DNA of 64,000 bases from Halobacterium sp. R2-5. Lineage in GTDB: Archaea > Halobacteriota > Halobacteria > Halobacteriales > Halobacteriaceae. This document shows positions 26,429 through 28,993 of the stretch, one piece after another. The position numbers and the translations under genes are program-made. The stretch is taken from positions 558,001 to 622,000 of the forward strand of contig NZ_JAANTH010000001.1 of NCBI RefSeq assembly GCF_011734195.1, given 5' to 3'. Each line of letters starts with the position of its first letter. Within the stretch, counting starts at the first letter, position 1. The notes beneath the pieces are model-generated. The model was not told the DNA's origin. It worked only from the letters and a program-made list of their open reading frames with translations, and searched no databases.

Positions 26429-27619
26429 TTACCGGATGACGTCGAGGCCGTTGTTCTTCTCGACCTCTTCCTTGCCGCCGTCCGAGTGCGCGCCGAACTC
26501 GCTCGAGGTGCTGCCGGCATCGTCGACGGCGCGCTGCTTGGCGTCGGCGTCGACATCCTTGAGCTCCTGGCGGGACTTGTCCGCCTGCTTCTGGGTGCTC
26601 GGACCGAGCACCTGCGCGGACTGCACGCCGGTCATGATGGCCATGACCCGCACCTTGCCCTTGTAGTTCTCCTGGATGCGCGCGCCCCAGATGACGTTCG
26701 CGCTCGCGTCCAGCCGTTCCGTGATGTTGTCCGCGATGCCCTCGGCCTCTTTGAGCGTGAGGTCCGGGCCACCTGTGATGTGGACGAGTCCGCCGCTCGC
26801 GCCGCGGTAGTCGACGTCCAGCAGCGGGTGGTTCATCGCGTCCTTGACGACCTCGTTGGTCTTGTTCTTGTCCTGGGTCTCGCCGACCAGCATCACCGCC
26901 ACGCCGCCCTGGTTCATGATGGCGGTCATGTCGGCGTAGTCCAGGTTGATGAGGCTGGGCTGGGTGATGGTCTCGCTGATGCCCTTGACCGTCTCCGCGA
27001 TGATCTGGTCCATCACGGAGAAGGCCTTCCCGATGGGAAGGTTCGGGACGTAGTCGAGCAGGCGGTTGTTGTCGAGGACGATGATGGAGTCCGCCTCGTC
27101 GCGGAGCTTCTCCAGGCCCTCCTCGGCTTTCACCGTGCGGGCGCGCTCGACGTTGAACGGCGTCGACACCATGCCGACGACGATCGCGCCCTGCTCTTTG
27201 GCGATCTTCGAGACGACGGGCGCGGCGCCTGTGCCGGTACCGCCGCCCATCCCGGCGGTCACGAACACGAGGTCCGCGTCGCCGAGCACCTCCTTGATGG
27301 TTCCCTGGGCCATCTCGGTGGCGCGCTCACCCATCGAAGGGTCGCCACCCGCGCCGAGGCCGTTCGTCAGGGACTTCCCGACGAGAATCTTCGTGTCGGC
27401 CTCGATCATCTTGAGGTGCTGTTTGTCCGTGTTGATGGCGATGGTGTCGGCGCCCTCGACGCCGATGTTGTACAGCCGGTTGACCGTGTTGTTGCCGGCG
27501 CCGCCAGCGCCCACGATGACGATGCGCGGGTCGCCGAACTCGTCACCGTCGCTGCTCGCGTCCATCTCCCGCTGTTCGGCTTCGGCGTTGTCGAGGGCGT
27601 CCTGAACGATGTCCTGCAT
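26429..27619 (-). CDS. ftsZ2: Cell division protein FtsZ2
   Basis: 396-residue tubulin homologue that forms the division ring. It has the GTP-binding GAGGAGNN (residues 37-44), the tubulin signature GGGTGTG (125-131) and the T7 loop [11 protein letters not shown]. The N-terminus ([19 protein letters not shown]) is the haloarchaeal FtsZ2 type rather than FtsZ1. The C-terminal tail after about residue 345 is acidic and disordered and ends in NNGLDVIR. It starts 2 bp after cdrS, so the two are surely one transcript, and it lies downstream of the repeated GTAAGAC operator region. Confidence 0.95.
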
Positions 27620-27621
27620 CG

Positions 27622-27789
27622 TTACACCTTCGCCCAGTTGTTCGTGCCGGCCTGGTCGGTCTGCTCGTCTATCATCTCACGGACCGCCGACCGAATCGCC
27701 TCGCTACGATTCGGGAACTTGCCCCGTTCGACCATCTGTTCGACCTCGTCGATCTGCTGTTTCGGAATGCGGAGTGTCACACGCTCCAT
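27622..27789 (-). CDS. cdrS: Ribbon-helix-helix regulator CdrS (55 aa)
   Basis: Small gene encoding a 55-residue ribbon-helix-helix protein: beta strand [11 protein letters not shown] followed by two helices with the RHH turn [17 protein letters not shown]. It ends GTNNWAKV. In haloarchaea (Halobacterium and Haloferax) this gene, cdrS, is cotranscribed with ftsZ2 and regulates cell division. The stop codon is 2 bp upstream of the ftsZ2 ATG. The start ATG at 27789 is unambiguous because the RHH strand begins there. It probably binds DNA as a dimer, perhaps together with CdrL. Confidence 0.9.
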
Positions 27790-27808
27790 ATTTGGTATCC
27801 CCGTTGTG

Positions 27809-27905
27809 GTAAGACGGCGTTCGGTTCCGGCTGCGTCTTACAGAACCGTTGGGCGGGTCATAACCCCGCGCCGTCGTCCGATTCTCTGTAAGACAACCGT
27901 CTTAC
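27809..27905. promoter_or_regulatory. Repeated GTAAGAC/GTCTTAC operator region of cdrS-ftsZ2
   Basis: The 174-bp gap upstream of cdrS holds GTAAGAC at 27809-27815, GTCTTAC at 27835-27841, and a perfect palindrome GTAAGAC-AACC-GTCTTAC at 27888-27905. The two half-sites of the palindrome have centres 11 bp apart, about one helical turn. A TATA-like TTATATAC (minus strand, 27931-27938) lies 26 bp upstream of the palindrome, placing the palindrome over or just after the likely transcription start. Such inverted repeats are what a dimeric RHH protein would bind; binding by CdrL or CdrS is inference. Confidence 0.65.
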
Positions 27906-27950
27906 GTACCACTACCCACAGTGTCTCAACGTATATAATTAACGGCGGAT

Positions 27951-27967
27951 GTAAACAGATGTCTTAC
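27951..27967. promoter_or_regulatory. Degenerate fifth operator site overlapping the cdrL stop
   Basis: GTAAACA-GAT-GTCTTAC: one perfect GTCTTAC half (27961-27967) and one degenerate partner. It covers the cdrL stop codon, so it lies between cdrL and the cdrS promoter. Confidence 0.45.
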
Positions 27968-28491
27968 CGATCGAGGGCGTCCGCCGACGCGGTCCGCCGG
28001 CCGCAGTGCGGACAGAACGACCAGTCCGCGCGCACCTCGTCGCCGCACTCGCAGAACACGCGCCGCGTCGCCTTCTCCCCGCAGTTCGGACAGTACACGT
28101 GGTCGTCAGACAGCGCCGCACCGCACTGCGCGCAGCTCTGCTCGCGCCGGCCGCCGCTGTCCGTCGGACGACCGTCGCCGCGGCCGGTCGGCTCGCGGCG
28201 CGGCGCTCCCTGCTCGCTCCGAACGTCCGCACGCAGTCCGTCGGCGGGCTCGACCGTGATATTCACGTTTACGTCCCGCTCGCGCGCTCTCGCGGCGAGC
28301 CGCCGCTCGACGAGTTCGTCGACGCGCTCGGCGATAACGTCGTCGACGCGCTCCCCGCCGGCGTCCTCGTCCGCGCCCCCGCCGTCGAGGTACGTACGCA
28401 GCGCCTCGCGCATCACCTCGCTCTTGGACTCCTCGCGGTCGTCGACGGCGTCCACGAGGTCGTCGTCCGCCCGGAAGGTTATCTTCGACAT
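27964..28491 (-). CDS. cdrL: Ribbon-helix-helix/zinc-ribbon regulator CdrL
   Basis: 175-residue DNA-binding protein. The N-terminus is a ribbon-helix-helix (KITFRADDDLVDAVDD, then the helices ESKSEVMREALRTYL). A central charged helix with VDELVERRLAARARER follows, and the C-terminus carries two zinc-ribbon-like CxxC pairs: CAQC...CPNC and CECG...CPHC. This is the CdrL (cell division regulator, long) architecture known to sit with cdrS-ftsZ2 in haloarchaea. It has its own upstream start and is separated from cdrS by the operator-bearing 174-bp region. Confidence 0.85.
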   Translation of the reverse strand: MSKITFRADDDLVDAVDDREESKSEVMREALRTYLDGGGADEDAGGERVDDVIAERVDELVERRLAARARERDVNVNITVEPADGLRADVRSEQGAPRREPTGRGDGRPTDSGGRREQSCAQCGAALSDDHVYCPNCGEKATRRVFCECGDEVRADWSFCPHCGRRTASADALDR

Positions 28492-28609: not shown

Positions 28610-28683
28610 CCGCCCTTAGCTCAGACTGGTAGAGCAGTCGACTGTAGATCGACTTGTCCCCCGTTCAAATCGGGGAGGGCGGA
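28610..28683 (+). tRNA. tRNA-Tyr (anticodon GTA)
   Basis: 74-nt cloverleaf. Acceptor CCGCCCT pairs with AGGGCGG plus discriminator A; the D-arm is GCTCAGACTGGTAGAGC; the anticodon stem GTCGA/TCGAC encloses loop CTGTAGA with anticodon GTA; and the T-arm is CCCCG-TTCAAAT-CGGGG. A C1-G72 pair is the archaeal tRNA-Tyr identity element. An upstream CTTAAAT about 35 bp away can serve as TATA box. The CCA end is not encoded. Confidence 0.95.
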
Positions 28684-28993
28684 CTCGTTTTCCAGTCGAA
28701 CTACGTTCGAGGGACGGCGCCGCGTTTTCGACGCATACGCCGCACAATCCGTCTGCGAGTCGAACGGGATACCCAGTCAACGCTCCGCGTCCTCGTCCTG
28801 TATGCAGCAGCCCTCCTCATTGGGTGGACTGCTCTCGTGAACGAGCAACAGTGCAAAGCATACCGTCTATGGGCGCAGCCTCTCCGGAGTCGTCCCCGGT
28901 GAGGAGTGCCTGTACCGGGCGAAAACCTCCTCTCCTTTCTATTACAAGGCTAATAATTTTCCGCGTACATCTCGACTCTGAAGTTGGACTACA
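28684..28993. other. 310-bp intergenic region after tRNA-Tyr
   Basis: Lower GC than the flanks. It contains a possible short frame (about 28654-28902) whose end has a hydrophobic helix (RVLVLYAAALLIGWTAL), but it overlaps the tRNA and lacks family features, so I do not call it a gene. The last 80 bp are AT-rich (ATTACAAGGCTAATAATT at about 28940-28957) and probably form the promoter of the next gene. Confidence 0.35.

Follow-up and report, generated by a model that had tools for sequence, protein, structure and literature searches.

The promoter of the division operon cdrS-ftsZ2 in Halobacterium sp. R2-5 carries a cluster of the 7-bp word GTAAGAC (GTCTTAC on the other strand), and comparison across genomes indicates that this cluster is a class-wide operator array at an archaeal division operon. 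The indication comes from the conservation of the words, from the near-single copy of their central palindrome in each genome and from its fixed distance to the TATA element. The words are probably read by dimers of RHH proteins, with CdrL as the main reader in most haloarchaea.

The array at the Halobacterium sp. R2-5 locus

The window, i.e., the whole 64-kb stretch of DNA that was analysed, holds on its minus strand, in this order, cdrL (27964-28491; RHH plus double zinc ribbon; Pfam RHH_1, CdrL_M and DZR), the array, cdrS (27622-27789; a 55-aa RHH protein; Pfam RHH_1) and ftsZ2 (26429-27619; Pfam Tubulin and FtsZ_C). Among the named genomes, those of Halobacterium species are closest, Hbt. 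salinarum DSM 3754 (L035) being one of them. Five exact copies of GTAAGAC/GTCTTAC were found, all inside 27809-27967 (159 bp) and none elsewhere in the window; the positions claimed for them in the earlier note, one of them at the cdrL stop, were exact. Site A (27961-27967, minus strand) overlaps the TAA stop of cdrL (27964-27966) and lies just upstream of the TATA element. Sites B (27899-27905, minus) and C (27888-27894, plus) are the two halves of the 18-bp core palindrome GTAAGAC-N4-GTCTTAC (27888-27905), whose exactness and 4-bp spacer, also claimed previously, could be confirmed. The core overlaps the predicted transcription start of cdrS-ftsZ2, which was placed from the position of the TATA box. 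The predicted 5' leader (27790-27908, minus) carries B to E, with D (27835-27841, minus) in its interior and E (27809-27815, plus) immediately before the start codon of cdrS. By eye, a TATA/BRE-like element was recognised at about 27930-27943 (minus); its TATA-like part (TTAATTATATA, about 27931-27941) lies, in the direction of the transcript, about 33 bp ahead of the base at which the palindrome begins.

A mere chance cluster would be consistent with the total of GTAAGAC in the window, which is ordinary (5 versus 3.15 ± 1.59 in shuffles). However, the whole genome of 2.98 Mb contains 32 such words, 27 of them outside the array, and at the rate of these 27 the Poisson probability of at least five words in 159 bp is about 5e-17, as a post hoc value. 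Chance is ruled out by this rarity in the genome and by the conservation at 240 distinct loci described below, and practically no weight is given to it.

Conservation across the haloarchaeal class

The exact palindrome GTAAGAC-N4-GTCTTAC was present in 309/391 genomes of the haloarchaeal class and in 72 of 86 genera, while its reversed control was present in 1/391. Matching genomes have one copy each, except for G239, in which two were counted; the rows were inspected by eye. In all 110 palindrome-bearing genomes that were opened (L001-L030 and L188-L267) it lies within 300 bp upstream of cdrS, and the N4 form was found in 63 of 80 named loci. True absence of the palindrome from the other 82/391 genomes was considered and rejected, as all 77 examined keep at least two exact words, mostly with a 5-bp spacer, and the N4 form was found in 0/77; among the 82, G385 and G389 were unsearched, and no cdrS was matched in G229, G348 and G362.

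For the word counts, 240 distinct 250-bp regions upstream of cdrS were used, including that of the window, since the named genomes partly recur among the unnamed ones; L032 and L188 were excluded for insufficient length. These regions hold 1061 exact words, i.e., 4.42 per locus compared with 0.023 in shuffles. The adjacent 250-bp bins hold 0-11 words each, with the exception of the next bin upstream, which holds 117. The recurrence of the half-sites at other ftsZ2 promoters, on which the earlier note had made its interpretation depend, was therefore borne out very strongly (309/391 genomes; 4.4 words per locus). The gene context is equally stable, since ftsZ2 directly follows cdrS in 240/240 distinct loci and a cdrL match lies upstream of cdrS in 232/240. 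At one locus (L375, genome G217) a second RHH-like gene was seen directly upstream of cdrL, with a profile match of 42 bits.

In a scan of the phylum, palindromes with spacers of N2-N6 were found in 79/81 genomes of the class versus 5/311 others; the reversed control was found in about 23 of the 311 non-class genomes by our own count. The palindrome is essentially confined to the haloarchaeal class, a restriction also reported for CdrL (PMC7439475), which favors CdrL as its main reader.

The arrangement of the sites is less rigid than the words themselves. An exact B/C pair with 9-13 bp from start to start is present in 232/240 loci, the distance being 11 bp in 162/240 and 12 bp in 63/240, so that short repeated words stand about one helical turn apart, as in the repeated half-site operators of RHH proteins. 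Site E is exact in 221/240 loci, D in 160/240 and A in 186/240, the last in one orientation in 107 and in the other in 79. On a FastTree phylogeny of FtsZ2 (237 rows), the B-C spacing changed at least 17 times and the orientation of A at least 10 times. Invariant words with drifting spacing and orientation have the look of DNA half-sites that are read separately, and because GTxxxAC is nearly symmetric in itself, one dimer per word could reasonably be inferred. The distance from the start of the TTTATA-like word to the start of B is 31-33 bp in 194/215 loci, when words with at most one mismatch were accepted at about 14-45 bp upstream and 25 loci with two mismatches were excluded.

Words within the cdrL coding sequence

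The 117 words in the next bin upstream led to a further set of sites inside cdrL. GTAAGAC occurs within the cdrL coding sequence in about 106/232 loci (e.g., L016), where it is read as Arg-Lys-Thr and lies typically about 320-325 bp upstream of B. Many relatives have one or two such exonic words, and none is found in cdrL of the window itself. The Arg codon of Arg-Lys-Thr is CGT in 123/124 cases, compared with 806/4609 of all Arg codons in CdrL and with 4/27 cases in which Arg-Lys is not followed by Thr. With synonymous codons shuffled per gene, 21.0 exonic words would be expected (maximum 34 in 200 shuffles) versus 122 observed, although these statistics of the full set ignore kinship among rows; the exonic word occurs in 14 of 42 diverse representatives. 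The codon choice of cdrL is bent to keep the exonic half-site.

CdrL and the loci without cdrL

Published ChIP-seq of Hbt. salinarum reports the region upstream of cdrS-ftsZ2 as the only reproducible genomic site of CdrL, at a region-level resolution in which individual words were not singled out (PMC7439475). In strain DSM 3754 of this species, four of the sites (A, C, D, E) match the word exactly, and a single mismatch was found in B. The suggestion of the earlier note that the repeats form an operator array for division control is thus supported by the class-wide conservation and by the CdrL peak in this region (PMC7439475). However, a simple CdrL operator is an incomplete description, since eight genomes without cdrL keep the core.

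In these eight of the 240 loci (L136, L153, L200, L259, L261, L262, L263 and L265) cdrL is absent from both the locus and the genome. Protein and profile searches for cdrL in the eight genomes gave nothing above 24 bits, whereas three cdrL-bearing controls gave 194-242 bits. The eight genomes contradict the published statement that CdrL, reported to be confined to Halobacteria, is encoded by all sequenced members (PMC7439475). At least five changes are needed for the loss of cdrL on the FtsZ2 tree. A tRNA-Tyr gene flanks cdrL in the window (28610-28684) and is still near cdrS in 4/5 scanned cdrL-less loci, as after a clean deletion. The core pair B/C and site E are kept in 8/8 of these genomes each, all exact, and the operator is therefore not restricted to loci with cdrL (8/240 keep the core without it). 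CdrL cannot be the sole reader, and something else maintains the core; CdrS is the obvious candidate where cdrL has been lost. A loss of A and D tied to the loss of cdrL was also considered (A in 2/8 versus 184/232 and D in 1/8 versus 159/232; Fisher about 0.002 each) and was rejected, as only 3-5 independent pairs on the tree remain and give no significance.

CdrS and its probable sister code

CdrS could also be the main reader everywhere, by autoregulation, and the CdrL ChIP signal would then be secondary or caused by competition. This is considered rather unlikely, although several observations are in its favor. The cdrS gene is encoded at 240/240 distinct loci and the core survived at least five losses of cdrL. 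Moreover, the beta strand of CdrS, MERVTLR in 240/240 loci, and its CdrL counterpart MSKITFR are alike.

The known targets of CdrS are in part against it. ChIP of CdrS in Hfx. volcanii gave 18 sites, including ftsZ1 (-50), dacZ (-47) and hisB; cdrS-ftsZ2 is missing from these sites as listed in Table 1, the construct having been an N-terminal FLAG fusion, which places the tag beside the strand that reads the DNA, driven by another promoter (PMC8406309). Upstream of ftsZ1 (L276-L305 and L269), the palindrome GTCNGAC-N4-GTCNGAC was found exact in 19/29 loci and with one mismatch in 8/29, and shuffles reached such a palindrome with at most one mismatch in 0.14%. The set consisted of 29 genomes of family f4, one further Halobacterium and the genome of the window, with 29/31 loci usable (L298 and L299 were dropped). 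In 26/29 loci the palindrome is located between -63 and -68 relative to the ATG, immediately ahead of a TATA element, and it has the same 7+4+7 geometry as the core of the array, which is a further point for CdrS as its reader. The CdrS-type palindrome also precedes hisB in two g23 genomes (L311 and L312), an FtsZ gene in one genome (G021, L306) and sepF in one (G030, L314 1501-1518); SepF is reported to fall on cdrS repression in Hfx. volcanii (PMC8406309). Exact copies numbered 1 to 7 per genome in 18/18 genomes, versus 0 for the reversed control. The sole exact copy in the genome of the window lies just upstream of a gatB-like gene (L355 1501-1518). At dacZ in 30 genomes, i.e., the ftsZ1 set minus the genome of the window, a GTCNGAC-like site close to the TATA box stands out in some, whereas it is weak in others or missing from them; start codons here were guessed by script and at least the rows of L329 and L343 look misplaced.

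CdrS therefore probably reads pairs of GTCNGAC, and the array would represent a sister code one fixed base apart. The array words do not fit the predicted CdrS code GTCNGAC-N4-GTCNGAC, because their position 3 is A and not C, and this difference (GTC versus GTA) argues against CdrS as the main reader of the array, as do the lack of cdrS-ftsZ2 among the 18 listed ChIP sites (PMC8406309) and the confinement of the array to the class, although cdrS-ftsZ2 itself is reported to be broader in distribution (PMC7439475). Consequently, the idea in the earlier note that the array serves both RHH regulators stands for CdrL, with its ChIP peak in the region (PMC7439475), and is weakened for CdrS, which seems to use the sister word and whose ChIP list does not contain the array (PMC8406309).

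Reading of the words by some other haloarchaeal protein, distinct from CdrL and CdrS, would reconcile the lack of a CdrS ChIP signal with the genomes that have no cdrL, and weak second RHH matches do occur in some genomes (e.g., G093, 22 bits). However, no candidate is common to all genomes and the published CdrL ChIP points at the array region (PMC7439475), so that such a protein appears improbable. CdrL as the main reader in most haloarchaea is still preferred.

The predicted leader RNA

The repeats could also act as RNA, with B-C, C-D and D-E pairing into hairpins of the leader that exclude one another and regulate translation or stability; this may coexist with the DNA role. In 42 diverse loci, the leader segments were more structured than shuffles (mean z of -1.84 ± 0.24 for C-D and -1.37 ± 0.20 for D-E), whereas five control segments had z between -0.63 and +0.38. 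Published measurements of mRNA and ribosomes point to control of the cdrS-ftsZ2 operon at a post-transcriptional level (PMC8303175). On the other hand, the predicted start lies downstream of both A and the exonic words, which are thus probably outside the transcript. In a sequence-only alignment, in which the half-sites are invariant and the inner segments align poorly, no predicted leader pair showed changes on both sides, neither between half-sites nor in inner pairs, and an Rfam scan of the leader gave three weak matches, all under the gathering scores. One alignment (A2) has a truncated row for the window, owing to wrong coordinates, which leaves the result as it is. Action of the repeats as RNA is regarded as quite unlikely; a second, RNA layer on top of the DNA role is possible. 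In the leaders of the relatives, the excess folding between half-sites was seen without a common sequence.

Proposed mechanism and its significance

Based on these comparisons, each pseudo-symmetric 7-bp GTxxxAC word would most likely take one RHH dimer. The B/C pair would be bound on the transcription start, with A just upstream of the TATA box and D and E in the leader. CdrL would be the main reader in most haloarchaea, its occupancy of B/C may hinder initiation, and A together with the exonic words may contribute to the assembly of a larger complex. Where a lineage lacks cdrL, the core sites would be kept in use by a different reader, most likely CdrS of the operon itself.

A more extended model is put forward tentatively, as one that has some chance of being correct. 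The promoter could be a shared landing strip for two RHH proteins with sister codes, in which CdrS autoregulates through the core and CdrL is overlaid on it. CdrL would also extend to its own gene, in which GTAAGAC doubles as codons for Arg-Lys-Thr. The start-site pair would thereby be linked, perhaps by looping, with words located about 320 bp upstream, and loss of cdrL would lead to a fallback on CdrS.

The array bears on the question of how the dose of FtsZ for the division ring is adjusted in archaea. It provides base-level targets throughout the class, i.e., an invariant core at the predicted start site, auxiliary words and an exonic word under codon selection. Moreover, through the sister code ftsZ1 and hisB would be linked to CdrS, as would sepF in one genome and an additional FtsZ gene in another. 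The lineages without cdrL are natural experiments for separating CdrL from CdrS.

Comparison with known systems

Both regulators, CdrL and CdrS, were known before. The additions made here are the words of the operator with their exonic counterpart, the sister code and the lineages lacking cdrL. With the CdrL region of Hbt. salinarum described in 2020, the array shares the locus, the genes and the single genomic target, and L035 carries the array (PMC7439475). No motif, palindrome or site map occurs in the text of that paper (PMC7439475), to which the present analysis adds the words, their layout, their conservation throughout the class and the exonic site. The CdrS ChIP motif of Hfx. volcanii published in 2021 is symmetric, and its paired sites spaced by 11 bp match those found at ftsZ1 and hisB (PMC8406309). 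The predicted CdrS code lies upstream of the TATA element at ftsZ1, whereas GTAAGAC of the array overlaps the predicted start. In the text of the literature searched, as distinct from figures or supplements, there was no mention of the operator words or their exonic copy, nor of lineages lacking cdrL, and the sister code was not spelled out in letters. A full-text search for the words returned unrelated papers only, none seen to print the motif.

The closest likeness in form is the omega repressor of Gram-positive plasmids, whose RHH dimers bind 7-bp heptads in either orientation, several per promoter and as adjacent repeats. The array similarly has several 7-bp words per promoter in either orientation; however, the omega heptads are adjacent, while the words of the array are scattered across 160-450 bp, a single pair being fixed. 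The RHH proteins Arc, CopG, MetJ and NikR bind short subsites in pairs, at a distance of about one helical turn, and NikR was the only solved structural family found by sequence search. Their operators resemble the array in the paired subsites and differ from it in words and effectors.
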